From a virus: a DNA stretch of 56,613 nt. The position numbers and the translations under genes were made by a program. The first letter of the stretch is position 1. Each line of letters begins with the position of its first letter. The DNA lies in the IMG/VR virus record IMGVR_UViG_3300023106_000013, positions 1 through 56,613 of that record; one strand, given 5' to 3'. Shown here one piece after another: positions 2,609 to 44,919 of this stretch. The notes under the pieces are model-generated. The model was not told the origin of the DNA and ran no database searches. It worked only from the letters and a program-made list of their open reading frames with translations.

Positions 2609-2640
2609 TCAAGTTGTCCTTATGTCTGAGATAAGAGAAA

Positions 2641-2660
2641 GGCCGGAGCGAACCCCGGCC
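2641..2660 (-). terminator. Intrinsic terminator-like hairpin after the capsid/decoration genes, copy A
   Basis: On the minus strand a GC-only 6-bp stem (2655-2660 with 2641-2646) encloses an 8-nt loop and is followed by TTTCTCTT. It lies 8 nt past the stop of the 111-residue decoration candidate, so it could separate abundant capsid transcripts from the adaptor genes. Confidence 0.6.
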
Positions 2661-2668
2661 CCTTTGTC

Positions 2669-3004
2669 TTAGGTTGGGTTGGCGTTAAACGCCCCACGCC
2701 GAACGTGGACAGCCTCACCAGTCAGGATCGCAAGGCCGGGAGGGGTATAGAAACCGCCCGCGCCGGTTGCGATGGACTTGGTCGCGGGCGTCATCGTAAC
2801 CTGAGTGCCGGTAGTAGCCGTGGCTGCAATGTCAGCAGTCGCCACGACCCAGAAGTATTCACCCCCATCAACGCCGCGAACGACGCTGCCAAGCTGGTAG
2901 GAGGGTGCGCCGATGCTGTTAGCGCCATCATAGAACGCGACAGGCGCGAACTTCTGAGTAACGTCAGGACCAAGCGAGGGAGTAATGCGGAAGGGGTAAG
3001 CCAT
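2669..3004 (-). CDS. Putative head decoration/stabilisation protein, copy A
   Basis: A 111-residue, Gly/Ala/Thr-rich protein with predicted beta character (YFWVVATADIAATATTG near 50-66) and no catalytic motif. It lies 15 nt downstream of the major capsid gene, the usual place for a small head decoration protein. The start has AGGAG upstream. No family is recognised by sequence, so the role rests on position and composition. A terminator-like hairpin follows. Confidence 0.6.
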   Translation of the reverse strand: MAYPFRITPSLGPDVTQKFAPVAFYDGANSIGAPSYQLGSVVRGVDGGEYFWVVATADIAATATTGTQVTMTPATKSIATGAGGFYTPPGLAILTGEAVHVRRGAFNANPT

Positions 3005-3019
3005 TTGTGTTTTCTCCTA

Positions 3020-4033
3020 TCACGCGGCTGGATTCGAGTCATAGAAGCGCCAGCTGTACTGAGGATTGCCCAGAACGAACTGACCTTCCCAGCCGATGAA
3101 CTGTGCGAGCGCATCTTGATTGAGCGGCATCTGACCATCACCTTCAAAGAGACGATCAAAGGCGAACTCATCGCGGTAGTACACATACAGCGAACGGCTT
3201 TCGAGGCCATAGGTTGTATTGGCTGGCATGGAAGCACGAATGCCCGAAGCCAGAACAGCATCAGCGCGACGGCCCGAACCGATGAACTCCAGAGCAGAGA
3301 ACCCGATAGCGCCAAGGCGCGTCTGGTTGACAATGCGCTGATGCGCGACCATCGAGCTTTCAAGGGCGCTGAAGTGCTCCTGCGACATGACCAGCAGGTC
3401 AGCCGAACGGTTGCCCTTCATGCGACGGCCCATGATTTCTCGAAGCATCGGCTGGATCGTGGTCGAAGTAACCTGAGTGCCAATGGTCGGGAAGGCAGAG
3501 TTTGCGTCCCAAGTGGTCGTCTGCCATTCTGGAATGGTGCGGGAGATACCGCCATACACGCCAGTATTGGTGACGATGGGAAGCGCAGCACCAAGGCCAA
3601 CCATGTCACGACCATTAAAGGACGTGCCATTGCCGTTGATGGCGATTTCCAGACCGTCATTCAGGCTTTCAGTCGCAGCCTGAACATAGGACCGAATAAG
3701 CGGAATCATCCGGTCGCCAGTGTTAGCGCGGATTTCAGTGCCGGTGAAGCTGATCGGGGCGTAGATGGCGCTGGGCTGGAACACAGCGTCGTTGAACAGT
3801 TCGATGGGCGGGTTTTCGAGGAAATCGTAGCCCGTCGCCCACTGTGTGCCCTGCTTGGCAAACTGGAGGTGATGGCGGATTTCAGGGCCGTCAAAAGAGC
3901 GGTAGTTACCCTTTTCCTTGACGGTATTGAAAACCACGTTGGAGTTGTAGACCAGTTCCTCAATGCCCGGCTTGTAATAGGCCAGAGTGGCGCTGAGGGT
4001 CTGCTGATAAGCACGCACCGGATTAATGGGCAT
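3020..4033 (-). CDS. Major capsid protein, copy A
   Basis: The 337-residue product has the size and composition of a tailed-phage major capsid protein: an early segment with FNTVKEKGNY, a central glycine-rich NGNGTSFNG element, and a C-terminal part ending in SWRFYDSNPAA. It follows directly after the scaffold-type gene (25 nt gap) and precedes a small decoration candidate, which is the standard order. An HK97-type fold is expected for this class but cannot be shown from sequence alone. The amino-acid sequence is identical in copy B. The long open frame on the opposite strand here is a shadow. Confidence 0.8.
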   Translation of the reverse strand: MPINPVRAYQQTLSATLAYYKPGIEELVYNSNVVFNTVKEKGNYRSFDGPEIRHHLQFAKQGTQWATGYDFLENPPIELFNDAVFQPSAIYAPISFTGTEIRANTGDRMIPLIRSYVQAATESLNDGLEIAINGNGTSFNGRDMVGLGAALPIVTNTGVYGGISRTIPEWQTTTWDANSAFPTIGTQVTSTTIQPMLREIMGRRMKGNRSADLLVMSQEHFSALESSMVAHQRIVNQTRLGAIGFSALEFIGSGRRADAVLASGIRASMPANTTYGLESRSLYVYYRDEFAFDRLFEGDGQMPLNQDALAQFIGWEGQFVLGNPQYSWRFYDSNPAA

Positions 4034-4058
4034 GTAACATTCCCTTAGGGTTTAGAGA

Positions 4059-5249
4059 TCAACCATTGACGGATCGCGCCGCCATTTTGATTGCCTCATC
4101 GAGTGACAGTTTGGCGGACTTGCGCGGGACTTCTGCCCCGTAGGAAAGTGCGCCTTTGACGGATCTACTGCCAGCCGGGTTTAGCGGCCTCTGGGCATTC
4201 GGTGCCGGGGCTACCGGCTCTTGCTGGGTATAGGAACCAACGGGGTTTATCCGTTCGGCCATGTCGTATGCTGCTTCCAAACGCTGTCGTTCAGGAAGTG
4301 TGAACGGCACTTTACCACTGTTCAGGAAAAACGCAATATCGGGCTCTAGCTCCTGATACCGTGGATGCTCTGCTTTGAACGGCGCGATGATGGAACGTTC
4401 AATCTCTGCATTACGCGCCTGCTCTCGGTCCTGCTGGGTTCCAGCAGTGAGTTGCTGAATCTGCTGCGTCAGGGTTTGGACTTGCTGCTGAAGCGCCTGA
4501 GTTTGCCGGTCTGCCTGCGTCGGAGCGGGTTGATTAGCCTGCCCCATGACATGCTGGGCATACTGCTGGGGAGTGACGCCGATGGACTGCAAAATGCGCT
4601 CGACACCAGCAGCGGGGTTTTCGCGAAGGAGCTTGTCAATGTTGGTGTAGTTTGCAAGCGCTTCCTTTACGGTTGTGCCCGCGCCCTTCGCCATCTCATC
4701 GAACTCGCGAAGCTCCTTGCGGTACTCCACGGCTTCGCGGCCCTCATCAAGGCCTTTCTCGTAGTTCTCCATCATGCGGTGCACTTCGCCGCGAACATCC
4801 GGGTTTACCCCAGCCCATGCCTCTTTGGCGCGTGGCAAGAAGTGAGCAGGAGCGCGATTGATATCCCGGCCCTCAGACGGACGAGGTTCGCCGCGTTCCT
4901 GCTCTACTTCCGCACCTTCCGCTGGGTCGCCAGCTTCGGGGTCTAGTTCTGCCTTGGGTTTGGCAGTGAATTTTCCATTATCGCCACGTTCAGGTGCTAC
5001 CTTCTCAGGCTTAGGCTCAACCTTGGCTTCTGGCTTTGCCTCTTTGGGCTCAACCTTTGGCTTGGGTTCCTTATCGGCGCTTTCCTTCGTCTCGGCTGCG
5101 GCCTGCTTTACAGCATCCTCAAGAGACATGGGCTTTTCAGGCTCAACGGGCTCTGGGGCTGGAGCATCAGGGCGAAACTCTGCGCTCCCCGGAGCAGGCG
5201 CATCATTGTCGATAACCGTGGAGAGAGGTTCGGTATTCAATTCGGTCAT
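4059..5249 (-). CDS. Scaffolding-type protein, copy A
   Basis: The 396-residue protein has an extended, charged, Pro/Glu/Lys/Ala-rich N-terminal half (about 1-150), a helical middle (160-235) and a Gln-rich coiled-coil stretch (about 240-275, QTQALQQQVQTLTQQIQQL). This composition, the length and the place just before the capsid gene fit an internal scaffold that guides procapsid assembly and then leaves the head. No protease domain is seen in it or beside it, so removal is probably by exit rather than by cleavage. Confidence 0.75.
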   Translation of the reverse strand: MTELNTEPLSTVIDNDAPAPGSAEFRPDAPAPEPVEPEKPMSLEDAVKQAAAETKESADKEPKPKVEPKEAKPEAKVEPKPEKVAPERGDNGKFTAKPKAELDPEAGDPAEGAEVEQERGEPRPSEGRDINRAPAHFLPRAKEAWAGVNPDVRGEVHRMMENYEKGLDEGREAVEYRKELREFDEMAKGAGTTVKEALANYTNIDKLLRENPAAGVERILQSIGVTPQQYAQHVMGQANQPAPTQADRQTQALQQQVQTLTQQIQQLTAGTQQDREQARNAEIERSIIAPFKAEHPRYQELEPDIAFFLNSGKVPFTLPERQRLEAAYDMAERINPVGSYTQQEPVAPAPNAQRPLNPAGSRSVKGALSYGAEVPRKSAKLSLDEAIKMAARSVNG

Positions 5250-5281
5250 TTTGTTTCCCTTGTCTGAGTTGGGAGGTTTAG

Positions 5282-5641
5282 TTATTCGCCAAGGCGACCG
5301 GCGTTAAGATCGGCAAAGGCCCGTTCTGTCGCCTCACGTATCAGGTTCTCATCTGGCTTGCGGTTCGCCTGCGCTTGCTGCTTGTAGGACTGGTCATCGC
5401 CTATCTCCACAAAAGTAGCCCCCTGAGGGTTTCCACCGGGCTTGTAGCTCTCACGCATAGCGGCTTTGGATGTGTACATTTGACCGTCAGCCATGCTCAT
5501 GAGCGCGGGTTGCTCATCGCTAGTGTTGATGCGCGGGAGCGGGGGCGGGTTGCGATCATCGTATGTGCGATAAACGATTGGCTCAACCTCGCCAGTATCG
5601 AGATTCAAGAAACCGCCCGGAACTGATTTATACCGGGTCAT
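5282..5641 (-). CDS. Small conserved head-region protein, copy A
   Basis: A 119-residue protein whose middle carries MADGQMYTSKAAMRES followed by a Gly/Pro-rich link and FVEIGDD. Short proteins with a D/G-Q-x-YTSK-like motif are common upstream of scaffold and capsid genes in phages of Proteobacteria, with no defined activity. The ATG overlaps the stop of the preceding 43-residue membrane gene as ATGA. Confidence 0.65.
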   Translation of the reverse strand: MTRYKSVPGGFLNLDTGEVEPIVYRTYDDRNPPPLPRINTSDEQPALMSMADGQMYTSKAAMRESYKPGGNPQGATFVEIGDDQSYKQQAQANRKPDENLIREATERAFADLNAGRLGE

Positions 5642-5769
5642 ACGAACCTCACTGCATATTGCCCGAACTTGATAAGCCCGTAGGCCGCTGCGATCACGAG
5701 ACTACGCATAAAAACCCACATACCTATTGCGCGGAGCTTTTCGCCGTCTGAGAGCGAATGTTTGTCCAT
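5638..5769 (-). CDS. Small single-pass membrane protein, copy A
   Basis: The 43-residue product has a polar N-terminus and one hydrophobic segment (about 17-38, MWVFMRSLVIAAAYGLI). The start at 5769 is chosen over the longer upstream frame because it forms a TAATG overlap with the collagen-like gene, and the stop overlaps the next start as ATGA. Function unknown. Confidence 0.6.
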   Translation of the reverse strand: MDKHSLSDGEKLRAIGMWVFMRSLVIAAAYGLIKFGQYAVRFV

Positions 5770-6461
5770 TATCCTAGTGCCTGATCCGTTGCTGATGTAA
5801 TTGTTGCTGTCGTTCCTGAGACGCGGCGAAGGGCCCAGAACCAGCCTGTAGGAACCCATGCTGACAACTGATTGCGCTGCCCGATGCCTAAGCCGATAAC
5901 CAATGCAATGCCTGTCACGGAAGCGCGGAATGTAGCTACCGCCGTTCCGCCCGTTCCTGCTGCTACCTGAGCCTGAACGGGGCCAATGCGAAGCTCTACG
6001 GTATCGGCCTGCGTACCAATCACTGTCACTGTATACGCAGTGTCGATCATGGCGCTGATAAAGCTAGGTTTCGTCGGTACAGATGCCGCGTAAGCCGTGC
6101 CAAAGGCGGGCGTTACCACAGTCGGAGCGGAGACGATGGCGGGGCCAGCGGGGCCGGTTGCGCCATTAGTCCCATTCGTGCCGTTTGTTCCTGCGGTGCC
6201 TGTGGCTCCGGTGAGCCCTATCGGGCCTTGTGAACCAGTATCCCCTTTAGCGCCAGTTGCTCCCGTGCTTCCTGTCGCGCCAACGGGTCCGGCTGGGCCG
6301 ATGGGTCCGATTGAACCAGTAGGTCCAGATGGTCCAGTGTTCCCCGTAGCCCCAACCGCACCCGTTGCTCCGGTATCGCCCTTATCACCTTTGACTCCCT
6401 GCGGGCCTTGGGCTCCATTCCTTCCGACAATCGGGTTCTGTACGCTCCAGTGGTTTATCAC
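5769..6461 (-). CDS. Collagen-like repeat protein, probable head fibre/decoration, copy A
   Basis: The 230-residue product has a short N-terminal anchor (1-15), a Gly-X-Y collagen-like run from about 16 to 107 (units such as [16 protein letters not shown]), and a C-terminal beta-rich head (about 110-230). Gly-X-Y segments in phages form trimeric stalks in fibres. It lies with two other short beta-rich genes between portal and scaffold, so it is more likely a head-surface fibre than a tail fibre. Start overlaps the next product frame as ATGA/TAATG links on both sides. Confidence 0.75.
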
Positions 6462-6775
6462 AGCGCACCAATCTCATAATCGACAGTGCCAGCAGCCGAC
6501 ATACCTGGGTCCATCGTAATTTCGAAAGCTTCACCCGGGCCATTCTTGTAGGTGTTCTGGCTGTCTGAGCTTTTGTATCGAATCTGCCCGCCATCAGTCA
6601 CGTAGTATGGACCAGCTACTAGATTGCTTGCCGACCAAAACCACACCCTAAGGCTAGTTGGAGCGGAATGAGCGAACGTCAGGAATAGCTCACGCGCTAG
6701 GAAATACTCGCTTGTTCCCGGCGTGAAGATAACGTGAGGACCGGGGCCGGTAATGTCTATGCTTTGACGTGACAA
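6458..6775 (-). CDS. Small beta-rich virion protein, copy A
   Basis: A 105-residue protein with alternating hydrophobic residues and aromatic strands ([20 protein letters not shown] near 40-60) and no cysteines. It is coupled to the collagen-like gene by ATGA, so it may cap or anchor the fibre. No family recognised. Confidence 0.6.
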
Positions 6776-6784
6776 TGCACTCTC

Positions 6785-7309
6785 CTAAAAGCCAAAGAGC
6801 AATTCATAGACTGCGGCAGGGGTGAGATTGCCAACGCCAGCCGCAAACCGTACCCACGTATTGCCGCCGATCAATTCAGTCTCATATGAGGTAATTGGGA
6901 ATCCGCCGATGGAAACCTTTAGGCCCTGAAGTGCTAGGAGGTAGTTGCTTTGGAACACCGCCAGATAGCGTCCGCTTGCAGTGTCATTGTAGAATGACAG
7001 GAGCGTGGTTGAGGCTGTAGGTTGCGCACTTATAGAGCCGAAAGCGGGCTGTGGAAGGGTTGCGGCACCCGTTGAGTACCCAACATGCTGCCCGTTCGTT
7101 CCCGCTGTCATGTTGATTGTCTGGAAATTCCAGTTAACCGGCGTGAAGCCTTGAACGATGAATGGCGTTCCCTTGTTATCCAGCACGATAGGGAGCCCAA
7201 AGCCATTATCTGCAATCGACATTACCGGCGCGTTGACGGCTGTTGGCCTGACTGGAACACCGATGCCATTTGTTGCGATCACTACAGGGAAACCAGCCAT
7301 TAGCTCCAA
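6785..7309 (-). CDS. Beta-rich virion surface protein candidate, copy A
   Basis: The 174-residue product starts with a repetitive VVIATNGIGVPVRPT segment, followed by a Ser/Thr/Gly-rich domain (about 55-174) with aromatic strand pairs. Such N-termini (GxGxPVR-type) are frequent on phage head or tail surface proteins. Its start overlaps the stop of the next upstream gene by 10 nt. Confidence 0.6.
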   Translation of the reverse strand: MELMAGFPVVIATNGIGVPVRPTAVNAPVMSIADNGFGLPIVLDNKGTPFIVQGFTPVNWNFQTINMTAGTNGQHVGYSTGAATLPQPAFGSISAQPTASTTLLSFYNDTASGRYLAVFQSNYLLALQGLKVSIGGFPITSYETELIGGNTWVRFAAGVGNLTPAAVYELLFGF

Positions 7310-8013
7310 ATCCCGTATGATGCATTGCTATGGATAAGCTGCCATTGCGTTTCAGCGAGACTGTAAATGAACTGGAACAACAGCGTCTTGCCCGTAACCG
7401 TCGAGGTTCGCAGATCAATCGAGGTAAAGGCGTTATATGCTACATTCCATGTGATTGCGCGGTTTGTGCCGTTGTCTCGAATACGAATGATGAGCGATTG
7501 ACCATCAACCGGGATGCCAGTTGGGGCTGCAATCGTCAACGCCCCCGACTGTGCAGAGATGGCTGCAATGTCAGTATTGTTGGCGTTGGGGGTTAGAGTT
7601 GCAGTTGTGGCGACCGTAACAAGGCGGGGCGCTAGATAGGTCGGGATTGCAGGCACCCCACTCAGATCAGCATAAGCGCCGCTAGTGGCAACCGCTGCTA
7701 GCCCGGTGATGGTGCTAGCGGATTGCGTCCCCGTCTGGTTAGCGCGGGCAAAGGCATCCGAGTTCTTATTCTGCGGATCGTACACACTCTTGAGCATGTC
7801 CCCAGCGCCAGCATTTACCCAAGTAAAATCGAGGTTGGCGTTACTGAGCTTGCCGAGAACCTGCCCTGTTAGGCCACCAGCAGGGACAGCCTGCAACATC
7901 GATGCAAGATCGGTACGAATGACTAGGTTTCGATCCACCACGCCAGCGCCGGGGCCTATGGGCAATGTGGACAGATAGTCTCTGAGAGTGCGGCTAGGCA
8001 GTGGCGCGGCCAT
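7300..8013 (-). CDS. Fibre-like virion protein, copy A
   Basis: The 237-residue product has an N-terminal segment with LTGQVLGKLSNANLDFTWVN, a middle with STITGLAAVATSGAYADLSG (both typical connector motifs of phage fibre proteins) and a beta-rich C-terminal domain (about 130-237). It heads the group of surface genes between portal and scaffold. Receptor binding or capsid decoration are both possible. Confidence 0.65.
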   Translation of the reverse strand: MAAPLPSRTLRDYLSTLPIGPGAGVVDRNLVIRTDLASMLQAVPAGGLTGQVLGKLSNANLDFTWVNAGAGDMLKSVYDPQNKNSDAFARANQTGTQSASTITGLAAVATSGAYADLSGVPAIPTYLAPRLVTVATTATLTPNANNTDIAAISAQSGALTIAAPTGIPVDGQSLIIRIRDNGTNRAITWNVAYNAFTSIDLRTSTVTGKTLLFQFIYSLAETQWQLIHSNASYGIWS

Positions 8014-8189
8014 TAGGTAGCCTCCCCCATGAGATAGTTGCCGTTATCGTCGGTGAGGTAAACGCCGTTATCGTCCGTGAGAAGAGCCATGCCGGGAGGA
8101 ATGGACGGAACAGCGCCGCCTAAAATGCCAGGATAAGCCAGCCTCACATTAAGCATAAGCCCGCGACGGCCTTTGGTCTTAACGCTCAT
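8013..8189 (-). CDS. 58-residue protein with duplicated TDDNG motif, copy A
   Basis: This short gene fills the gap between portal and fibre-like gene. It starts at 8189, overlapping the portal 3' end by 11 nt, and its TAA overlaps the next ATG as TAATG. The product has a basic N-terminus, a Gly/Pro-rich middle and a tandem element LLTDDNGVYLTDDNGNYLM. Identical in copy B. It may be an anchor peptide for the fibre group. Confidence 0.6.
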   Translation of the reverse strand: MSVKTKGRRGLMLNVRLAYPGILGGAVPSIPPGMALLTDDNGVYLTDDNGNYLMGEAT

Positions 8190-10515
8190 TTGTCGGACCC
8201 TTTGGCTTCATGGCTGCAACCATAGCTGTCTGTCGCGCCTGTTCGGCCTGCTGATCTAGCTTGTCGTACTCAAGCTGCGTATCAATCGCCAACTCCTCGC
8301 GCTTGAACTGCTGTTCGGCTGCAAACCGCGCATCCTCAGAGATTTGACGCTGTGCCTCTAGGGCCGCTTCTGCATCGAGAGAAAGCTGCGTTGTTTGGAT
8401 ATCCGCGCCAAGCTGGGCCTCTTCACGCGCCACCGCAACCTGAGCATCCAACTGCTTGGCCTGCGCATTGCCCTCAGCCTTGATCTGTTCCTTCATGGCC
8501 TCAGTCTGGGGCTTAGAGGCAATCTCTTGCTCCTTGAGGCCAATCTCACGTTCGCGCAAGGCCATCTCGGCGGTCTTATACATGCCGTCCTGTTCGACCT
8601 TCTTAGTCTCAATCCCGACCATGGCCTTCTTGTACTCAGCCTCAGCGGCGTTCTTTTCCGCATCAGGGTTGGGCTGAGGAGGCGTGTTGCTCATCGTATC
8701 AATCCATTCATCAATAGACGACATGAGCGCACGGGGCGGGCGGTAAACGTCGAGATTCCACTTGAGGATTTCACCAGCAGCAGCCGAACCCCCACTCTGG
8801 ATCATCGGCATAAGCGCCTGCATGCCTGTAGCCAGAGCGGCAAGGAACTCATTGCGCATCTGCTTCTCGGCCATCTCATCGGGGTAGATCGTGGAATCTG
8901 TCTCGATATCGAAAATGAACGGGTCGGTCTTGGTATCGTTCAGAAGCTCTTTGACCATTTCAACGGTAACAGCAGCAGCGGATTTCTTCACCGCCTCAGT
9001 TGCCTCGGAAATGATCTGCTGTGTCTGCTGCTGGGCTTGCTGAGCGGCCTCTTGGGCCTTCTGAGGGTCTTGAGCGGCTAACTGCTCAATCTGCCCTTCA
9101 ATCTCATCGATCTGCTCTTTGGCCTTGGTTTCAATCTCTTTGATTTCGCGCTTCACTTCCGCATTGGTAGGAAGCTGCATTTGCGCCATCTTGAGAAGCG
9201 TATCGATATTGAACTCTTCAGCGAATATCTCAACCATGATGCGGCCTGCATCACGGGCAATGCGCTCTAGGCCCTTCACTCGGTCCCGGCTGCGGGCTGA
9301 TGTGTGCTGTACCTTGATCTGCTGAGCACCAAGCGTTTCGTTCGGGTCACTATCCCCGCGCTGAATATCAGCTACGCCAAGAAGCTCTTGAACGTTACCA
9401 ATAAGCTCACGGCGCTCCTCAACAGCAGCTAGGATGGTCTGTGCTACTTGGTCAATCGGGAGCCATTCAACCAGCGGGCCAGAGCCGGTGTTCATTGAAG
9501 CGATAGGCACGATGATAAAGCTGTCGCCCGAATGCTTTCGATAAGCAGCTTGAACGGCCTCGCCTAGATCGGAACCCGCAGCGGGAACAATACCCGCCAC
9601 AATTAGCTGTTCCGCAAGGTCATGGATTTTCTGGGTGAGGAGGTTGATCGTCTCAAGCTGGCCCTGGATATAAACCATGTCAGGCACAGGGACGAGGCTA
9701 CGGCGCTGGCGTGTGCCATAGGCAGGCTCAGGACATGGGAAGAATCCCTTGAGCTTCAGATGTGGCTCTTCACGTTCCAGAATGTCGGGAAGGCCATCGC
9801 AAATCCAGATGACCTTCTTTTCGTTGCGGTCCCAGATTTCCCATACAGCAGCTTTATTGACGGTATCTTTGACGCCGTTAGTGCTGGAATCTCTCGCCTG
9901 CTCAGTGCGCTTCTCAGTGTAGGTCGCATCATCTGCAACGCCTTCACCGAACCGATCACGCATTTCCTTCTTGGTCATCCAAGCGCGACGGGCAACCCAG
10001 CTAACCTCAGTCCACTTACGAACTGGATCATGCGCGAAATCATCGCGATCCAAGTCCTCAATGCAGACCTTTTCCTCTCCATCATCCTCGTAGCTTACCC
10101 AAAGCTGCCCACGCGAGTTGATCGCTAGATCATCACGGACGCCAAGCATGGAAGAATTGATGTTGGTTAGGTCGAACCCTGCAATTGCAGAACGCTCAAG
10201 CAATTCAGCCGTTACGCGCTTGACCGGCTTACGGTCCTGAAACTTTGTCGTTACAACCGGAATGGGCGGGCGGGAATAGATAGACGGCTTGATAACCTCC
10301 ATCGAAGCCCAGAACAGATCATACTCACGGTCTACAATCGCCATCTCTGTAAGCGTAATGCCAGATAGGCTTTGGAGGCCGGAGTAAACACGGTCGATCT
10401 GGTCGCACCGATGAAACCAGCGGTCAAATTCCTTGCGATAGCACTCAATGGCCTCCAGATAGGGAGCCGCTGATTTCGGATCGACGCTGTGAGGCTCGCT
10501 ATCGCCAAATGCCAT
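8179..10515 (-). CDS. Portal protein, P22-like, copy A
   Basis: The 778-residue protein has the length and layout of P22-type portals: an N-terminal wing with helices and CYRKEFDRWFHRCDQIDRVY near 25-45, a core with DNA-facing helices, and a very long C-terminal Gln/Glu/Ala coiled-coil region (about 460-530 and 650-778) like a barrel. It forms the 12-fold ring through which the terminase packs DNA. It follows the Ig-like gene and the terminase. Residues about 296-348 (9472-9630) are replaced relative to copy B, whereas the last ~450 residues are identical. Confidence 0.85.
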   Translation of the reverse strand: MAFGDSEPHSVDPKSAAPYLEAIECYRKEFDRWFHRCDQIDRVYSGLQSLSGITLTEMAIVDREYDLFWASMEVIKPSIYSRPPIPVVTTKFQDRKPVKRVTAELLERSAIAGFDLTNINSSMLGVRDDLAINSRGQLWVSYEDDGEEKVCIEDLDRDDFAHDPVRKWTEVSWVARRAWMTKKEMRDRFGEGVADDATYTEKRTEQARDSSTNGVKDTVNKAAVWEIWDRNEKKVIWICDGLPDILEREEPHLKLKGFFPCPEPAYGTRQRRSLVPVPDMVYIQGQLETINLLTQKIHDLAEQLIVAGIVPAAGSDLGEAVQAAYRKHSGDSFIIVPIASMNTGSGPLVEWLPIDQVAQTILAAVEERRELIGNVQELLGVADIQRGDSDPNETLGAQQIKVQHTSARSRDRVKGLERIARDAGRIMVEIFAEEFNIDTLLKMAQMQLPTNAEVKREIKEIETKAKEQIDEIEGQIEQLAAQDPQKAQEAAQQAQQQTQQIISEATEAVKKSAAAVTVEMVKELLNDTKTDPFIFDIETDSTIYPDEMAEKQMRNEFLAALATGMQALMPMIQSGGSAAAGEILKWNLDVYRPPRALMSSIDEWIDTMSNTPPQPNPDAEKNAAEAEYKKAMVGIETKKVEQDGMYKTAEMALREREIGLKEQEIASKPQTEAMKEQIKAEGNAQAKQLDAQVAVAREEAQLGADIQTTQLSLDAEAALEAQRQISEDARFAAEQQFKREELAIDTQLEYDKLDQQAEQARQTAMVAAMKPKGPTNER

Positions 10516-11034
10516 TTACGCTGCAATCACGGCTGCGGTTGGAAGGCTGGTAGCAGATAAGCTGCCATTGGAGTTTGTCGCAGTGACGCGCACCCGAATG
10601 ACCTGACCAATCTGCCCAACAATGGGAGTATAGGTGTTAGCCGTTGCCCCGACGATATCAACGTTGTTCGCTGTCCACTGTCGAGCGTATGTGTTACCCG
10701 TTCCAGTGAACGTGCCCTGCGTACTCGTGAGAACCTGCCCAACCTGCGCCGTGCCCATGATCGTCGGGAGAACCGTATTGCGAGGAGTACTCACCGCCTT
10801 GGCAATTACGACTGCAACACCCGGAACAATCGACCCCTCAGCTAGCAGATCAGCCGATACGGTCCCCGCTGTAATGCCAGAGGCAAGGTTCAGCGCATCG
10901 AGAGGGACTAGGCCGCTTTCGAGCAGTCTGTTGATGTTCCCCGTACCGGCTGCGATCTGTCGTTGAATCTCTAGCCCTAGCTCAGCAGACACGCCAAGGG
11001 ATTGGAGGCTTTGGGCAAGGTCAAATACCGGCAT
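10516..11034 (-). CDS. Virion protein with Ig-like C-terminal domain, copy A
   Basis: The 172-residue product has a helical N-terminus (about 1-75) and a C-terminal Ig-like fold (about 85-172) with the usual GTAQVGQVL, YARQW and RVRVTATNSNG signatures. Such domains decorate phage heads and weakly bind cell surfaces. The start at 11034 is chosen because AGGTGG precedes it and copy B starts at the matching site; the longer frame in copy A is not shared. The stop abuts the portal start. Confidence 0.7.
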   Translation of the reverse strand: MPVFDLAQSLQSLGVSAELGLEIQRQIAAGTGNINRLLESGLVPLDALNLASGITAGTVSADLLAEGSIVPGVAVVIAKAVSTPRNTVLPTIMGTAQVGQVLTSTQGTFTGTGNTYARQWTANNVDIVGATANTYTPIVGQIGQVIRVRVTATNSNGSLSATSLPTAAVIAA

Positions 11035-11101
11035 TGGTCCACCTATGTCGAACGATTGAATCCTTTTACCACGCGTTTGACGAACGAACAAGGCAAACAA
11101 A

Positions 11102-11132
11102 AGCCCCGTCACCGGGGGATGGCAACGGGGCT
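11102..11132 (-). terminator. Intrinsic terminator between the acidic protein gene and the Ig-like gene, copy A
   Basis: An 8-bp perfect stem (AGCCCCGT pairing with ACGGGGCT) is followed on the minus strand by CTTTTGTTTG. It lies in the 126-nt gap between 11161 and 11034, so it can attenuate or end transcription between the packaging and portal genes. The same hairpin occurs at 54113-54143. Confidence 0.7.
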
Positions 11133-11160
11133 CTAGGAGGTCAAGAAGCAGAGGAGACGA

Positions 11161-11442
11161 TTACTTATCGTTCTTCTTCTCGTCCTTGTCAACGGGTTCA
11201 TCGGCGCTATCATCACCATGCGCGGCCTGTTCTGCAAAGCCGTACTGGTTTGGATTAAGCTCAACGTGGAACTTGCCCAGATTTGGCTTCTGTCCCTGTT
11301 GGTTCTTCATCCGCTTGTTGGCCTCGTCAGCTTCGTACTGCTCGACCTTGCGGCGGTCTGCGTCGGAAATGTCTGAGGGCAGTGTGGAAAGATCGCCGGG
11401 GATGTAGCCACCAGCTTTGAGGTCTTCGATGAACTTGGTCAT
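11161..11442 (-). CDS. Small acidic protein, copy A
   Basis: A 93-residue, highly charged protein with a helical basic-acidic middle (DADRRKVEQYEADEANKRM) and an Asp/Glu/Lys-rich tail. No family is recognised. It is conserved at the same place in copy B and followed by a terminator. Confidence 0.6.
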   Translation of the reverse strand: MTKFIEDLKAGGYIPGDLSTLPSDISDADRRKVEQYEADEANKRMKNQQGQKPNLGKFHVELNPNQYGFAEQAAHGDDSADEPVDKDEKKNDK

Positions 11443-11473
11443 GACACAGTTCTCCTTGGGTTTGGGTAACGTC

Positions 11474-11713
11474 CTAGAAAGGAGTTAGTTCGATCACATC
11501 ATCAAACTCTGTCCATTGGTCGTAATGAGCTGGCAACAGAATACCGCCATCCCGCGAATAGAACCCTCCCTGCGATGTGATAGGCTTTCCCCCTATGTTC
11601 ATTTCATAGGGGTCTTTCCAGCTTACCCTATTAACCCTGAATGGGGACGAATTCTCACGCGCAATAATCATTCTGTCCTTTGGTGCAGACGACATTGACT
11701 TCCATTCGTTCAT
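11474..11713 (-). CDS. DUF551-like 'APKD' protein, copy A only
   Basis: The 79-residue product begins with W-x-SMSSAPKD and has a late YDQWTEF motif. This resembles a family of small phage/prophage proteins with W...APKD at the start; the gene at 22603-22875 is a second member. Its ATG overlaps the terminase stop as ATGA. At the same position copy B has an unrelated gene (54463-54675), so this is an exchangeable slot. Confidence 0.6.
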   Translation of the reverse strand: MNEWKSMSSAPKDRMIIARENSSPFRVNRVSWKDPYEMNIGGKPITSQGGFYSRDGGILLPAHYDQWTEFDDVIELTPF

Positions 11714-13290
11714 ATCCGTCTCCCGCCCTTCTTCGTTCTCTTGCGCTCTTCGTATGTTGGAACCCTGGATTTACCGTAGTTCTCAGGGGCTATGACTTCC
11801 GCTGGCGCTGGCAATGGCTTACCGGCCAGCATCCGGTCAATCAACTGACCAACCAACCCCAAGGCGTCAACCTGATCGTCATGGACGCCAACGGGGAAAC
11901 TCATCATCTCACTAATCAGGTCTGAGATAAAGGGCGCATCCTTGTGAATGTAGAGGCCACGCGTTGCAATCAACCCACGGAATGACTGCGCACGAATGGC
12001 CTTGTCGCCTCTGGTGGGGAACTGCTCTCTTGCCACGTAAGCCCCACGGCTAAGCTGCGCTCTGGTTAGGAATGGGCCAACGCCGGATTTGATCTGCCCT
12101 GTTTCCTCAGCCCAGCCTATCGGAGCCCATTTCAACACTAGATCACAGAACGCCTCAACCCATACATCAGAGCTTGCCTGCGCCCGCCATAGATCGAGGA
12201 GCCAAGGCTTCCCCTCTGGATCAAGGCCAACAGCCGCGTGGACCGTATAATCACCACCGTCGCTTGTCACAGCATAGTCAGAGCCGCCATAGACGCGCAT
12301 AGACGCTCTATCGGGCAGGCTGTCGGCTAGGTGTATCCATTCGCGTTTGAAATAGTCGCCGGTGTCGGGGGATGGACGCTGTTGAAACAAGGCCGACCAT
12401 GTGCGCGGCAATCTCTCAAACTTAGCCCAATGGCTTGCGGGAAACCACTCAGGCCAGATGTAATCGCCAATCTCACGGCCTAGAGGATCATCGGACCGCT
12501 CACACTTAGCCGCAAGGCAAATGACTTCCCAATCTTCACCATCACGGCCCCGGATAATGCCGCTCTCACCTGCATAGTTCTCCGGCAGGATTGAGCCGCT
12601 GAGGTCGCCATTGTGCCAGCGGGTGTTGATGATGATAAGCGATCCTCCAGGCTTGAGTCGCGTTAGAACGCTTTCCTCATACTCGGCAATGGTCCGCTCT
12701 CGAATAACCTCACTGTCCGCATCTTGACGGCCCTTGAACGGATCATCCACCACAACGCAGTCAGCTCGGTTGCCGGTAATGCCAGACAGAATACCGCCTG
12801 ACATATACTCAGAGCCATTGCCCAATGCCCACTCGTCAGCAGCAGAGCTTTCAGCGGACAAGCCAGTGCCGAACAGCGTGGTATATTTGGGCTGCTTGAT
12901 GATCGAGCGAGTTCGCCGCCCAAACTTGCGGGCCATGTCCGAACCGTAGGACACGCCAATCATGCGGTAGTTTGGTATCTTGCCCATGATCCATGAGGGA
13001 GCAACGACAGAGCCGTATGTGGACTTTGCACTACCGGGCGGCATGAGCAGCATGAGCCTGCCGTTGGGCTTCTCAATGCACCGCTGAATAGCGTCTAGGG
13101 CTAGGATGTGATGTTCAGCTAGTTCCGTCTCAACATGGGCGTTAGCCGTGTCGGAGTTTTCGTCTTGCTCGACTAGAGGCGCACCTGGAACATCAATGTA
13201 CCGTGCATACTCAGTTAAGCTGCGACGGGCTCGGCGGCGTCTCAGTAGCTCCTGCGCTGCTTCCTGCTGCGATGGCTTCAAGTTCATCAT
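11710..13290 (-). CDS. terL: Terminase large subunit, copy A
   Basis: The 526-residue motor packs DNA into the head and cuts it. Walker A is seen at about 82-91 (LMPPGSAKST), Walker B at about 178-184 (VVVDDP), a coupling SLIIINTRWH segment near 220, and a C-terminal RNase H-type nuclease with acidic residues in GGSDYAVTSDGGDY (about 340) and HDDQVDALG (about 485). The two ATGs at 13290 and 13287 are both possible. The 5' end overlaps the small terminase candidate by 80 nt, unlike copy B, which has another gene there. Downstream ATGA coupling to the APKD gene. Confidence 0.92.
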   Translation of the reverse strand: MMNLKPSQQEAAQELLRRRRARRSLTEYARYIDVPGAPLVEQDENSDTANAHVETELAEHHILALDAIQRCIEKPNGRLMLLMPPGSAKSTYGSVVAPSWIMGKIPNYRMIGVSYGSDMARKFGRRTRSIIKQPKYTTLFGTGLSAESSAADEWALGNGSEYMSGGILSGITGNRADCVVVDDPFKGRQDADSEVIRERTIAEYEESVLTRLKPGGSLIIINTRWHNGDLSGSILPENYAGESGIIRGRDGEDWEVICLAAKCERSDDPLGREIGDYIWPEWFPASHWAKFERLPRTWSALFQQRPSPDTGDYFKREWIHLADSLPDRASMRVYGGSDYAVTSDGGDYTVHAAVGLDPEGKPWLLDLWRAQASSDVWVEAFCDLVLKWAPIGWAEETGQIKSGVGPFLTRAQLSRGAYVAREQFPTRGDKAIRAQSFRGLIATRGLYIHKDAPFISDLISEMMSFPVGVHDDQVDALGLVGQLIDRMLAGKPLPAPAEVIAPENYGKSRVPTYEERKRTKKGGRRI

Positions 13291-13528
13291 CCGTTAGCGC
13301 ATTGAGCCGGGACTGAATAACGCCGCTCAACTCTACCTGCTGCATGGGCTTGCCGTCTACACGATCAGCCACTTCCTTGATGGCCCAGCTTTCACCCTCT
13401 AGTGCTTTGGATACAAGGACTTCTGCCACTTCACGCAGTTTAGTCTCACCCGTTGCGCCTTTGGCAGTGAGGGCGATGTTGAGCATGTTGGAGAAGCTGC
13501 GTTCTTTTGGAGGGCGACCACCAGCCAT
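13211..13528 (-). CDS. DUF5681-like protein, terminase small subunit candidate, copy A
   Basis: The 105-residue protein starts MAGGRPPKERSFSNML and has a helical middle with WAIKEVADRVDGKP, a pattern of DUF5681 proteins found before phage large terminases. A small terminase that recognises the packaging site is the likely role. It overlaps the large subunit start by about 80 nt. The C-terminal DDELEAIA element is also seen in the partial gene at the right edge of the window (56552-56613), its copy B counterpart. Confidence 0.65.
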   Translation of the reverse strand: MAGGRPPKERSFSNMLNIALTAKGATGETKLREVAEVLVSKALEGESWAIKEVADRVDGKPMQQVELSGVIQSRLNALTDDELEAIAAGSSAGATETPPSPSQLN

Positions 13529-13537
13529 TATTTAAAC

Positions 13538-13681
13538 TCACTTAACCTTTTGATCCATAAGTTGCGGCTTATGTAATTCGATGGCTTTCTTTACGATCAA
13601 TCTAGGCTCTCTGCCCTCTACGTGCAACATGGCTTCTTTGTCGATATCGCGGTCGGCTAGGTGCCATTCATCCGTGGTCAT
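13538..13681 (-). CDS. 47-residue hypothetical protein
   Basis: A short gene too small for routine calling. It starts at 13681 as an ATGA overlap with the gene upstream and ends 9 nt before the small terminase candidate start. The product is soluble and charged (starting MTTDEWHLADRD). GAAGAA precedes the ATG. No family recognised. Confidence 0.5.
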   Translation of the reverse strand: MTTDEWHLADRDIDKEAMLHVEGREPRLIVKKAIELHKPQLMDQKVK

Positions 13682-15101: not shown

Positions 15102-15547
15102 TCCTCGTTCCTCTCTTCTGTGGTGGTTTGGATAGAGGGCTTGGGACGACGAAGGATACCCCTGCGGTGTTCGCGCATATACTCGCGCATCCAAGCCTTC
15201 TTATCGAATTTGGGTGCCGGAGCTGGGGTCGAACCAGCGTTGATGGCGTCAAAGGCCACTGTCCTGCCATTAGACGATCCGGCATTAGTATCGACGGCCT
15301 CTATGCTTCCCACCGGTTTGACCCCTTTCGGGTCGGCCTGTTTCCCCGTCAACAGCGCCGTCGATTGTGTATGGACCTCTTTTCGAGGCGGCAATGCTGA
15401 CACATCACTCTTTGGCGTAACCGGCCTGTCAGGGCTTGGAGTGCCTATCCTAACTTTGGTGAGACGATCAGGCCTCCACCCGACTGGCTTCTTAGGGCAG
15501 TCGAGCCAATTATGGGCGGGGCTTTTGCAGTACTCACAATTCTTCAT
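15098..15547 (-). CDS. Cys-rich basic protein whose frame contains a tRNA gene
   Basis: The 149-residue frame begins with C-x-x-C...C (MKNCEYCKSPAHNWLDC) and ends with a basic WMREYMREHRR helix. It resembles the 91-residue gene at 56240-56515, which has the same N-terminal cysteines and YQREYMRKRR. Codons about 88-112 are the tRNA-Gln sequence, read in frame and in sense. The stop overlaps the Lar-like start as ATGA. A weak promoter-like pair (TTGTCT and TACTCT, 17 bp apart) lies directly before the ATG. Whether a full protein is made is open. Confidence 0.5.
   Translation of the reverse strand: MKNCEYCKSPAHNWLDCPKKPVGWRPDRLTKVRIGTPSPDRPVTPKSDVSALPPRKEVHTQSTALLTGKQADPKGVKPVGSIEAVDTNAGSSNGRTVAFDAINAGSTPAPAPKFDKKAWMREYMREHRRGILRRPKPSIQTTTEERNEE
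15211..15284 (-). tRNA. tRNA-Gln (anticodon UUG) with encoded CCA
   Basis: All arms pair on the minus strand: 7-bp acceptor (TGCCGGA with TCCGGCA), 4-bp D arm (GTCT with GGAC), 5-bp anticodon arm (GTGGC with GCCAT) around CTTTGAC, 5-bp T arm (GCTGG with CCAGC) around TTCGACC, and a genomic CCA end. The loop gives anticodon TTG, reading CAA. The U1-A72 end fits glutamine tRNA; the discriminator base C is unusual. It is the only tRNA found and lies inside the 15098-15547 frame. Confidence 0.85.
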
Positions 15548-21215: not shown

Positions 21216-21248
21216 AAGAAAAACCCGCCGAGCGGGGGAGCTGGCGGG
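21216..21248 (-). terminator. Intrinsic terminator ending minus-strand transcription from above 22.1 kb
   Basis: A 6-bp GC stem (CCCGCC with GGCGGG) with a 13-nt loop is followed on the minus strand by TTTTTCTT. Any minus-strand transcript entering from 22131 would run antisense through the RNA region and end here. Confidence 0.6.
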
Positions 21249-21249
21249 C

Positions 21250-21278
21250 TTGACTTGTGGGCTTTAGGGGCCGATTAT
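21250..21278 (+). promoter_or_regulatory. Promoter for the plus-strand structured RNA
   Basis: TTGACT (21250-21255) and GATTAT (21273-21278) are separated by exactly 17 bp on the plus strand. Five of six and four of six consensus bases match. It points into a ~0.84 kb stretch without genes that is rich in hairpins. Confidence 0.5.
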
Positions 21279-21284
21279 GCAGAG

Positions 21285-22120
21285 GTCCTGAGCAAGTAAC
21301 CAGCTTCTCAGGGTGTCGGCTGGGTTTTTACCTTGGAAAGTTTCCCCTGCCGCTGAGACATAAACTAGCCGTATCTGCATTCGGTTTCAAGTCTCAATCT
21401 AAAACCTCCTGACGAGTTTTGCGGCACTCTCTCAAAGGTGTCGAAACAAAAAGTGATGGTCGGCGTGACCCATAGCCTCCATCCCCTGCACGTATCCCGG
21501 CAAAACCGGGGCTGGTCCGAACTGATAAGCCTCCTCTGGGCGTGACTTCCCAGGTAAAGCTTTGAAGGTGGTCTGCCAGATGAAAAGACCACAAGGCGGC
21601 GATACGGAATGATCGCAAGGTGCTTGCACCGAAAAGGAACTGAGTATGCGGCCTTCGGGCTTGGGCTAGTCACCCACTGCACATAAGGTTGGGCCATCCC
21701 TATACCGTGCAGGCAGAAAAGGGTTGAGCTATGTCTAAATAGTCAAGAGGCCCGCTCCGTTCATTCGTGGCGGGCCTCATTGCTTCAGAGGCGTTATTGA
21801 TGTACAATGTTTGTAAGGATGGATCGTCCGTAAAGGCAAGTTTAGCGGCGGGATATAGGCGAACTTGCAAAGCCAAGCCCGATGCGTGAATCCTTAGGGT
21901 CATCAGGACTACAGCGAGCATTGTAGTTTAAAACAGGTACGCACCCCGACCTGATAACCCCATCCAAAGCCATTGCACTAATACAGCAGTAGAGCTATTG
22001 TCGTGGCGTTAAGGGTGAAATTAGGTAGCGATGGGCGCACAAGCGTAGCAACGGTCTCCTAGTTCCCCTTAACCCCCACCCAACGGCCCGGATAGCTTAT
22101 AACAGCCTCCGGGCCTATTT
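21285..22120 (+). ncRNA. Candidate large structured noncoding RNA, ~0.84 kb
   Basis: No open frame of convincing quality exists here on either strand. The plus strand carries perfect helices in series: 21536-21553 (5 bp), 21568-21592 (7 bp), 21619-21630 (GGTG-CTTG-CACC), 21651-21660 (GCC-TTCG-GGC), 21677-21712 (6 bp), 21747-21778 (9 bp), 21836-21868 (7 bp), 21908-21927 (6 bp) and a 7-bp long-range pair 22009-22015 with 22066-22072. UUCG and CUUG loops with the right closing pairs mark the plus strand as the RNA. A promoter precedes and a terminator follows. It resembles in size and hairpin density the large phage RNAs such as GOLLD or ROOL; membership is untested. Confidence 0.6.
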
Positions 22121-22125
22121 GTTGG
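22085..22125 (+). terminator. Intrinsic terminator at the end of the structured RNA
   Basis: A 7-bp GC stem (GGCCCGG, 22085-22091, with CCGGGCC, 22109-22115) is followed by TATTTGTT on the plus strand. There is no T run in the other direction, which supports plus-strand transcription of the region. Confidence 0.55.
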
Positions 22126-22130
22126 TTAGG

Positions 22131-22601
22131 CTACATCAACACAATGACAGGTTTGCCGCCAAGCTTCTCGATAGCGGCGTTGAGGTGTCCTAGATGAAGC
22201 CCTGCATCAGGATCAATCCAGATCAAGCGCTCATCATCGGTGAATTTCACATCATCGAACGCAACCCAATCTGTGACTTCGGGATGGCGATGGAGCCAAT
22301 CCTTAACCGCAAGATCGCGTGGCATGTCAGGGTATTTAGTCGCTAGGTCCGTTTCATGAATATGGTCACGATCAAGGCCTTGTTTCTCTAGCGCAACGTC
22401 GATATCGTCAGTATCAATAAACGGGCGGTTATGCGTGGTATTGAATACAACCTTCGCGCCAGTCCGCTTGCAAAGCTCCTGAATGACGGCAACAGTTGTC
22501 TGCGGGAACCGCCGCTTCCAAGACGCCATGCTGTCCACGAGGAAGAAGCTCGCGGGGATCATTGGACCATCGATATCCAAGAAGATCACCTTCTCAGCCA
22601 T
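22131..22601 (-). CDS. HAD-like phosphatase/kinase-associated protein
   Basis: The 156-residue product starts KVIFLDIDGP (HAD motif I, Asp 9 and 11) and has THNRP near 56 and VAFDDVKF near 112-120, matching HAD-type folds used by small phage proteins, including the HAD domains linked to RNA-repair enzymes. It probably removes or moves phosphate from nucleotides or RNA ends. AGGA lies before the ATG at 22601, chosen over a much longer frame. Confidence 0.6.
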   Translation of the reverse strand: MAEKVIFLDIDGPMIPASFFLVDSMASWKRRFPQTTVAVIQELCKRTGAKVVFNTTHNRPFIDTDDIDVALEKQGLDRDHIHETDLATKYPDMPRDLAVKDWLHRHPEVTDWVAFDDVKFTDDERLIWIDPDAGLHLGHLNAAIEKLGGKPVIVLM

Positions 22602-22602
22602 T

Positions 22603-22875
22603 CTATTCTTCCTTCTCTGGATTGTGTGTAACCGTAGGCATGGGTTGCCAATGGGTCGGCTGGATATCTGGTTCTTTGTAGTCAGTGCCTGAATAGTCCT
22701 CCCGCTCAATAACCCGCTCACCATCCCAACTAGAACACCACTTCTTTCCGTACCATGCGATTGTCCATGGGCCATAGACGGTTGGCTTTTCCCGAAACCC
22801 GTAGTCCTTAACGAACACACCGATGATCTCCGTCCCGTCTTTCGGTGCCGTCTCAATATCCTGCCATTCGCTCAT
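22603..22875 (-). CDS. DUF551-like 'APKD' protein
   Basis: The 90-residue product starts MSEWQDIETAPKDGTEIIG and has WKSSWDG-like and THWQPMP elements, the pattern of small W...APKDG proteins widespread in phages of alphaproteobacteria. It ends 1 nt before the HAD-like gene start. A second member is at 11474-11713. No biochemical function known. Confidence 0.65.
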   Translation of the reverse strand: MSEWQDIETAPKDGTEIIGVFVKDYGFREKPTVYGPWTIAWYGKKWCSSWDGERVIEREDYSGTDYKEPDIQPTHWQPMPTVTHNPEKEE

Positions 22876-22898
22876 TCTCGTCTCCTTTCAGCGGCTTG

Positions 22899-23468
22899 TC
22901 ATAGAGGTAGGTCTTTGACATGTTTCCAAATCTTCCCGGCCCGCACGAGCCGAATTAGGGAGCTATGGACACCGTATCGATCTGCTATCAAAATTGATGA
23001 TCCGGCTGATTTACGAATCTCCCTAACATCGTCCTCCGTAAGCTTCGAATTTTCTCGGTCCTCTCCACGCTGTTGAGTTGAATTATCCCTGAATGAGTGT
23101 TTTGGAGCATCCAGAGCTATCCCCTTCCTCAGCCTGTTCCTGATAGAGTTAGGGTGAAGTCCGTAAACCTCCGAGGCCTGCACCAGAGAAGTTCCGGGTA
23201 TGGTGTTGTTCCTCTTATTCCGGTTCTGTTCGGTTACGGTTGCCCATCGGCAGTTCTCCGGGAAGTACCCCTTTTCGTTATCGATACGGTCAATGGTGTG
23301 CTTTGGGGTGGGCTTCATTCCCATATCGCGGATGAAGTTGAGATAACTAACCCGCCATTCATCGCACACAGTGAGCCGCGCATAGTCGGCATGTTTTGGA
23401 TCATTCCCGTAAACACGATCCATCATCGAACGCCAGCTTCTGTATTCGCTAGACTGCCAAAGTTTCAT
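22899..23468 (-). CDS. HNH endonuclease with C-terminal helix-turn-helix
   Basis: The 189-residue product has an N-terminal WRSMMDRVYGNDP and VCDEWRVSYLNFIRDMG, the DRIDNEKGYFPENCRW HNH-type core near 70-90, an intermediate DNA-binding repeat and a C-terminal LTEDDVREIR...WKHVKDL element. This is the architecture of free-standing phage HNH homing-type nucleases. It overlaps the resolvase gene by 20 nt, typical for an inserted gene. A broken relative is at 31268-31851. Confidence 0.75.
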   Translation of the reverse strand: MKLWQSSEYRSWRSMMDRVYGNDPKHADYARLTVCDEWRVSYLNFIRDMGMKPTPKHTIDRIDNEKGYFPENCRWATVTEQNRNKRNNTIPGTSLVQASEVYGLHPNSIRNRLRKGIALDAPKHSFRDNSTQQRGEDRENSKLTEDDVREIRKSAGSSILIADRYGVHSSLIRLVRAGKIWKHVKDLPL

Positions 23469-34922: not shown

Positions 34923-36104
34923 TCACCTGAATACGGTTACAGAGACATAGGGCATATCAATAGCAGAGTTACCGGCATCTCGAACGGCCATGCGCATTGC
35001 CGTTGTTGTTGGAGCGACTGACGCGGATTGACTAGAATTTATCGCAGGAGAGAAGGTCGCAAAAGCGGCGGGCAGATTAGCGGACACTGTCGCTGTCGTC
35101 GCATAGTTTACGTCTGGCATGGCCGTGGCGAAATTTACGGTATAGTCGCCAGTTGCGTTTCTTGTAACAGACGATACGTTTCCAGAGCCATAGATAGCCC
35201 CCGTTGTGCCGTTGAAGCTTACCCATGCTCGACACACGAAGGTTGGGAGGCTGGACGTTATCTTGGCTATTGCCGTTTGTGCATCCATGCCGACTTGAAC
35301 CAACGACGGGGCAGTTGCCCACGTTCCCGCCGTCGCTTCTGTGACAGTGATTACGCCAAGAACAGAATATGCCTTTGAGGTAGTCGCGGTGCCAGTATAG
35401 AATACGCCCTGGCTATCAGCAGCGCCCGCGCCGCCTTCTGCCGTCGAAGACGCAAGCCCATTGACGATCTGAATACCAGACGCAGGATTTATCACGCCAA
35501 GCCGGAACGTTCCAGCATCGTTAAAACCCACTACGACTAGGTTAGCCGCAATCGCACTAGTAGTGCCCAGAGTTGACCCAGACGACACAACCAGCGAGGT
35601 CGCTGCCGTAAGTGTCAGAACATCAACGTCACCACTATTTGCCGTAGCGCTTCGGAATGGTACGTAAACTGGATTGCTTGCTGATGGGTCATTTCCATCA
35701 AACCCCTTGATCGCAATCGTTAGAGCGTTAGCTGCAACGGTCGCTGCAATTGCAAGATTTACAGGATTTGGTGACTTATCAAATGCGATATCACTCGTAA
35801 GAGCGAGTGTTCCGCTTGTCGCGGGGAGGGTATAAGTTCGAGTTGTAGCCGTGGGGATGTTAGCAGCACTGAACACGCCAATCTTGGTTAGGTCTGTGCT
35901 ATTTTTGATGCCAAAACTGTTGTCTAGGGGCTTTCCGTCTCCTACTCCATTGCCGCCATAGGCGACGGGCTGGATGGTGTTGAAAGTCTGTTCAGCATCA
36001 GACCAGCCCTGATTATTCACAGCGCTTGGAATAGGCGTTCCGGCAACCTGCGTAGCCTGCGCACCGGGCAAGGTATATGTGCCATTGGGACCAGAGCGTG
36101 GCAT
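34923..36104 (-). CDS. Tail fibre protein
   Basis: The 393-residue product starts MPRSGPNGTYTLPGAQATQV, an N-terminus common in fibres of phages of alphaproteobacteria, followed by Gly/Asn/Ser/Thr/Ala-rich beta repeats and a C-terminal domain ending IDMPYVSVTVFR. AGGAG before the ATG decides the start. Probably binds the host receptor through its C-terminal part. No enzyme motif seen. Confidence 0.7.
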   Translation of the reverse strand: MPRSGPNGTYTLPGAQATQVAGTPIPSAVNNQGWSDAEQTFNTIQPVAYGGNGVGDGKPLDNSFGIKNSTDLTKIGVFSAANIPTATTRTYTLPATSGTLALTSDIAFDKSPNPVNLAIAATVAANALTIAIKGFDGNDPSASNPVYVPFRSATANSGDVDVLTLTAATSLVVSSGSTLGTTSAIAANLVVVGFNDAGTFRLGVINPASGIQIVNGLASSTAEGGAGAADSQGVFYTGTATTSKAYSVLGVITVTEATAGTWATAPSLVQVGMDAQTAIAKITSSLPTFVCRAWVSFNGTTGAIYGSGNVSSVTRNATGDYTVNFATAMPDVNYATTATVSANLPAAFATFSPAINSSQSASVAPTTTAMRMAVRDAGNSAIDMPYVSVTVFR

Positions 36105-44245: not shown

Positions 44246-44919
44246 CCGAACGCTCCGGGCATGGTGTATCGGCCTCTACTTCCGCCGCCGATAATGGTCT
44301 GTCGAGAGCCAACATCACGGAAGCGCTGCTTTTCTAGGCGCTCCTGGTACTTGGCTAGATCAGCCGAGAAGTCGAAGCCCTTGGCCTCTTTCCAATTCCA
44401 GATAAACGAAAGGCGCAACAGTTCATCATCGAGAACGAACGTGTCAGTGTCAGCCGTGAACGTTGATGGATCGGACCCGACCACGATACTGGTTGAGATA
44501 TAGCCATAGGACAGCGGCATATTATCAGGCAGGATCGGCATGACATTGAGATTGCCGCCGAACACCATCCAGCGCTGCTGCCATGTCGCTACGGGGTAAT
44601 CGATCAGTTCAAGCCAATGATTGAAGTCCTGCATTTGCTGAGCAGGGTAGAAACGCCAATTCGGCCCGATAAGGGACGCATCCTTGACCATGCGGCTATA
44701 GTCGCTGGGGAGGGGGAAGGATGTCGCAATCCCGTCACCAGCAATTGTTGCAGTACGGATAAGGCGCTGCCAATCATAGTCATCAAGGATTTGCAGCGCC
44801 GCCGTGTTGACGGTGTTCGTTAGCTCCAAAGCCGTGCGATCAGTGCTGGCAAAGAGCGCTTGCGGGCGCTCAACGTCGATAACAAGACTAGCTGACTGCA
44901 CGATCTGGAGGATGTTCAT
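44242..44919 (-). CDS. Head-tail adaptor protein, P22 gp4-like, copy B
   Basis: 225 residues, differing from copy A only near the C-terminus (Ser for Ile in the GGG-RG segment). Same overlaps with neighbours. This gene holds the left limit of the identical stretch, near 44,322. Confidence 0.7.
   Translation of the reverse strand: MNILQIVQSASLVIDVERPQALFASTDRTALELTNTVNTAALQILDDYDWQRLIRTATIAGDGIATSFPLPSDYSRMVKDASLIGPNWRFYPAQQMQDFNHWLELIDYPVATWQQRWMVFGGNLNVMPILPDNMPLSYGYISTSIVVGSDPSTFTADTDTFVLDDELLRLSFIWNWKEAKGFDFSADLAKYQERLEKQRFRDVGSRQTIIGGGSRGRYTMPGAFG

Follow-up and report, generated by a model that had tools for sequence, protein, structure and literature searches.

It is rather probable that positions ~21287-21733 of the window (the whole 56,613-nt stretch of viral DNA analyzed here, record IMGVR_UViG_3300023106_000013) hold the plus-strand gene of a phage noncoding RNA of about 445 nt that belongs to a family outside Rfam, is bistable and probably acts in trans. 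It is rare for a new class of large structured RNA to be found, and the phage ones (GOLLD and ROOL) are still without a function; this RNA offers a well-supported secondary structure together with a testable hypothesis of two conserved, rival helices. The initial annotation had proposed a single structured RNA of about 0.84 kb. A structured plus-strand RNA was indeed recovered, but homology and covariation extend only over the ~445 nt given above.

Searches guided by the terminase supplied many related loci as a starting set, among which DNA matches and models detected the RNA only in L149. This locus aligns to window positions 21443-21733 with 62% identity (E 4e-13 in the search of all loci, 1e-15 pairwise), the indels in the alignment have lengths that are not multiples of three, and the RNA and the terminase share a strand in L149 but lie on opposite strands in the window. 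DNA patterns made from the conserved blocks of the window/L149 pair retrieved the family from viral contigs. Pattern and covariance model searches together gave 19 members (the window, L149, L203, L207, L208, L209, L212, L213, L215, L218, L221, L223, L226, L228, L229, L231/L247, L232, L243 and L244), which represent fewer than 19 independent lineages because some are closely related or come from one sample. The record of one partial match (L225) yielded a complete copy, and in record G046 the covariance model R1, built on the 3' domain, picked up a second copy that has diverged (E 3e-14). G046 is an 86.6 kb viral record whose two diverged copies lie on opposite strands, at 8686-8808 (minus) and 35784-35900 (plus). 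The pattern matches L204, L205, L210, L211, L214, L216, L217, L219, L220, L224, L227 and L230 were judged on inspection to be due to chance.

The members were found in environmental phages, several of them apparently phages of Alphaproteobacteria, with GcrA genes nearby. The record of L207 seems to derive from an isolate genome, and a CI-like repressor gene is close by. Blastn of the region, and likewise of members L218 and L208, against phage and plasmid records gave zero matches, and searches with the neighboring gene, the HAD gene and the antisense open reading frame led to no homologue of the RNA. The covariance model with strict filters found no match in 299 bacterial genomes of one order, and the exact pattern none in 385 genomes from a class or 398 from a phylum; these sets overlap (~1,080 genomes in all), and the absence is a statement about this sampling only.

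A protein product of the region was ruled out, as no frame is conserved and the indels are not multiples of three. This agrees with the initial annotation, which had seen no credible gene on either strand between 21117 and 22130: the open reading frames there are devoid of coding potential, and the one of 110 aa that runs antisense within the RNA interval (21365-21697, minus) has no Pfam match.

The folded shape of the RNA is demonstrated, at the level of comparative analysis, by matched base changes among its relatives. In an alignment of the 3' domain of 17 sequences that had not been fitted to a structure (A5), 22 pairs were 91.9% paired and showed 77 double-change cells, compared with 27.9 in shuffles. 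In an alignment of the whole core of 18 sequences (A6), the 40 proposed pairs were 91.5% paired, with 141 double-change cells versus 42.2 when shuffled (0/500). Pairs slid out of register were 35-51% paired in A5 and 27-51% paired in A6, although these controls lean toward the structure because it was derived from these very sequences; the numbers of double changes weigh more. Covariation extends to the 5' helices H2 and H3, and H2 in 10 other members was 98% paired, with 7 double changes versus 1.2 in shuffles. Folding energies of the single sequence gave z scores of -2.3 for the plus strand and -3.5 for the minus strand (20 shuffles each), a weak signal that is not strand-specific, and z scores for 160-nt windows over the core were near 0. 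Therefore, the case rests on the comparative evidence.

Helix H1 (CCTGAG/CTCAGG, 21287-21312) is matched in other members by hairpins that differ in sequence, and H2 (CGGC/GCCG, 21317-21352), supported by covariation, has a loop like that of L218. Since H1 and H2 of the window match the 5' helices of the members, the 5' end of the RNA likely lies near 21287, just past a promoter-like site. This site (TTGACT-17-GATTAT, 21250-21278), which had been singled out initially, is present and its position fits the start of H1, but by itself it is at chance level (1 found versus 1.5 expected). The core begins with hairpin P0 (CGGCAC/GTGTCG, 21422-21443), followed by a conserved A-rich linker, hairpin P1 with loop GTGACCCATA (21455-21483, covarying in A6), segment A1 (CCTGCAC, 21485-21491), hairpin P2 (CCCGG/CCGGG, 21496-21510, from A6) and hairpin P4 (21569-21591), with double changes in 6/6 pairs. 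Two tetraloop hairpins that were noticed from the sequence at the outset, P5 (GGTG-CTTG-CACC, 21619-21630) and GCC-TTCG-GGC (21651-21660), fall in helices that covary in both A5 and A6. The latter is the center of hairpin a (21650-21661), which is closed by an invariant G-U pair, and it is followed by hairpin b (TGGG/CCCA, loop CTAGTCA, 21662-21676; A5 and A6), segment A2 (CTGCAC, 21677-21682) and strand S (GTGCAGG, 21707-21713). At its 3' end the conserved RNA has invariant GGCAGAAAAGGG and conserved GAGCTATG (21712-21733).

Between P5 and hairpin a lies invariant CTGAGTATGCG (21640-21650), which may be one strand of a bulged-G (loop E-like) motif. The segments CUGAGUAUGCG and GGCAGAAAAGGG are unchanged in all A6 rows and slightly different in L243, and they would fit the two strands of such a motif (AGUA/GAA) beside a UGC/GCA helix. 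A pairing of loop CCCAUAGC with the 3' GCUAUG was dropped because divergent members retain the 3' end and not the loop, and a second pseudoknot between loop b and CUAU was weak when tested.

The most distinctive property of the RNA concerns strand S (GUGNAGG), which is complementary to two upstream segments, A1 and A2. The helices A1-S and A2-S share this strand and so exclude each other. Over the 19 members, each of them is 94.7% paired and shows 20 double-change cells, compared with shuffled means of 4.6 for A1-S and 4.2 for A2-S (0/5000 shuffles). The versions of A1/S include CCUUCAC/GUGAAGG, CCUGCAC/GUGCAGG, CCUCCAC/GUGGAGG, CCUACAC/GUGUAGG, CCGUCAC/GUGACGG and CCUACAAA/UUUGUGGG. RNAalifold picks A1-S unprompted, and this helix counted by itself on A6 gave 12 double-change cells versus 2.7; it is not formed in L229. 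In constrained folding, the A1-S and A2-S states of the window differed by 0.5 kcal/mol, and in 8/15 members the gap was within 2 kcal/mol. A pseudoknot, PK1, can form between the P1 loop (NCCC; ACCC at 21468-21471) and the 3' GGGN (GGGT at 21721-21724), and its variable pair is seen as A-U, C-G and G-C; PK1 is supported on less data than the secondary structure. The segments of A1, A2, S and PK1 were picked by eye and the members are related, so that the shuffle tests overstate significance. These covariation data suggest a bistable RNA, i.e., a built-in molecular switch, and that reading is well supported by them. The complementary copies A1 and A2 could instead reflect a dimer or a folding intermediate and not regulation.

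Several observations bear on the strand and the autonomy of the gene. One G-U pair is unchanged in 18/18 rows, and G-U cells outnumber A-C cells by 34 to 11 (16 to 11 once the invariant pair is removed); the invariant pair, together with the conserved loops, favors the plus strand. The RNA had been described as lying opposite to the surrounding genes with a minus-strand terminator directly before it, and this was borne out: the genes on both sides are on the minus strand, with the RNA antisense to them, and the terminator scan placed a minus-strand terminator at 21221-21251, within the feature interval 21217-21251. In L207 the RNA is also opposite in strand to its flanking genes. The genes next to the RNA differ from member to member, and the open reading frame that follows the 3' AUG is not conserved across members. 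No relative of the window's terminase was detectable in 9/15 RNA-bearing records, some of which may be fragments. From the differing neighbors, the unconserved reading frame, the records without a detectable terminase relative and the antisense flanks, we conclude on comparative grounds that this is an independent RNA gene. Its occurrence in phages with diverged or not detectably related terminases points to a role in infection on which selection can act.

The main rival to a trans-acting two-state RNA is a cis-acting, riboswitch-like leader, in which the A1/A2 exchange and PK1 would make an AAAAGGG-(N)-AUG start accessible or mask it and thus control the next frame or read-through. In 15/19 members an AUG lies 5-8 nt past the GGG, a two-state architecture is typical of riboswitches, and in most members a same-strand gene starts 30-120 nt downstream with no terminator between, an arrangement that would also fit a leader. 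In L203, a 155-aa HNH-endonuclease-like reading frame starts exactly at the RNA's terminal AUG, 7 nt past the GGCAGAAAAGG block. However, the AUG is missing in four members, the frames that begin there are unrelated and many are just 3-25 codons long, the GGG belongs to PK1, the downstream genes were different in every case examined, and the flanking genes are reversed in the window and in L207. The RNA thus resembles riboswitches in its general mechanism, two mutually exclusive helices using one strand, and differs from them in that the type of downstream gene is not conserved, the window RNA is antisense to its neighbors and no Rfam riboswitch matches it. We regard a leader function as possible but on the whole doubtful. 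A DNA element rich in hairpins, such as a replication origin or a packaging site, would suit the location in the early/replication region and the terminase genes found 1-4 kb downstream of the RNA in some members. It would not call for a G-U pair that is invariant in every row, an excess of G-U over A-C cells, conserved loops or a pseudoknot from loop to end, and the position relative to the terminase is not fixed (the window RNA is ~8 kb from the terminase), which leaves this explanation hardly credible.

Comparison with known RNA classes bears on the remaining alternatives. Rfam 15 gave only chance-level matches at E<=10 for the window and members L208, L218 and L232. The GOLLD and ROOL models had no match in the window (gathering threshold or E<=10), in 11 member loci (gathering threshold) or in L208, L218 and L232 (E<=10). 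Thus, the RNA is not GOLLD or ROOL, contrary to one of the two identities suggested initially; the other, a new class, is in line with homologues that carry compensatory changes, the lack of a conserved protein frame and the lack of an Rfam family match. Literature searches, which did not reach sequence-level comparison with lists of candidate structured RNAs (e.g., PMC8040213), turned up no account of the family. As far as these analyses reach, it is a new RNA family; the novelty is at the family level, and the broader kind, large phage RNAs of unknown function, has precedents. The nearest in kind are GOLLD and ROOL, which form cages (PMC12286853). GOLLD is likewise a large structured RNA of temperate-phage genomes with no known function, but it is often longer than 800 nt, has a different core and often occurs with tRNA genes, whereas the RNA described here is outside a tRNA island. 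ROOL shares a phage or prophage origin, large size, pseudoknots and the lack of a known protein partner, but has other helices and other conserved motifs. A similar RNA-only oligomer, a dimer or cage assembled by domain swapping between A1 and S of separate molecules, would draw on the elaborate, pseudoknotted structure of a large phage RNA and on A1-S and A2-S complementarity that could serve intermolecular pairing. The RNA is smaller than GOLLD and ROOL and has no sequence or model relation to them, and the only tRNA in the window is a tRNA-Gln at 15211-15284, ~6 kb away; an oligomer therefore seems improbable. A catalytic or guide RNA (an intron relic, a ribozyme or the guide of an RNA-guided nuclease) is less probable still. 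Ribozymes typically have long invariant stretches and pseudoknots, and HNH reading frames lie near two members, but models of group I and II introns, the HEARO/IscB guide RNA and other ribozymes found nothing even at E<=10, a nuclease gene was not consistently present among the neighbors scanned, and the RNA comes after unrelated genes and splits none. The phi29 packaging pRNA is also a phage-encoded structured RNA, and some members lie upstream of terminase genes; the present RNA is much larger, has no Rfam match and is on the opposite strand to the window's terminase.

For the favored bistable, trans-acting RNA, we propose the following mechanism. Pairing of S with A1 would give a long-range helix that closes the entire core, and pairing with A2 a local hairpin; A2-S would be the only state compatible with a UGC/GCA-closed junction beside the AGUA/GAA motif. 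During transcription A2-S would be expected to form first because it is local, and A1 would subsequently take the place of A2, except where binding of a partner keeps A2-S intact. The RNA may act in trans, with the ribosome or a protein of phage or host as its target, given that it has no conserved neighboring gene, occurs in diverse phages and, in the window, is antisense to both flanks. The more specific idea of a new class of stand-alone two-state switch RNA, with S exchanging between A1 and A2 and a pseudoknotted 3' end, acting in trans and moving between phage lineages as an independent gene, is advanced tentatively, as plausible rather than probable.

The ends of the window (1-13601 and 43013-56613) are mutual repeats whose identity falls from 99% to 91%. 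Therefore, the contig is an over-assembly of a genome of ~43 kb, probably from two strains. The phage that carries the RNA is temperate; its terminase and portal are akin to those of phages like Rhizobium phage RHph_I3_18, which has genes for an integrase and a repressor. The noncoding stretch that follows the RNA (21734-22130) contains a strong hairpin, GAGGCCCGC/GCGGGCCTC (21747-21778), directly after it, which is a possible terminator without a good U-tract. It also contains a terminator-like hairpin (22085-22115) with a U-rich tail that reaches 22125, as initially annotated and, according to the terminator scan, the sole one on the window's plus strand. Homologue searches detected none for 21734-22125, and the stretch could be either another RNA or the tail of this one. 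The gene adjoining the interval (22131-22601, minus) codes for a protein with HAD_SAK_2, the HAD domain of 'Swiss Army Knife' RNA repair proteins.

In L149, which has no tRNA genes, the 3' end of the RNA and the following AUG (5397-5450) resemble ~6680-6720, the start of the small terminase gene (MAERRQ/MAERGRQ), perhaps through duplication. The nearest relative of the window is G003 (L092; the record of L006), with a terminase 99% identical to the window's, and no family member was detected in it by DNA match or model, a further point in favor of the RNA's autonomy. A stretch at ~22724-22825 of G003 is tRNA-like: it contains two hairpins that resemble T-arms and carries a 3' CCACCA, and ARAGORN makes no call there. 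The slot that matches that of the RNA is occupied in G003 by an unrelated noncoding stretch (22160-22900) closing with a plus-strand terminator hairpin (22683-22720); this stretch may represent another RNA at that place.
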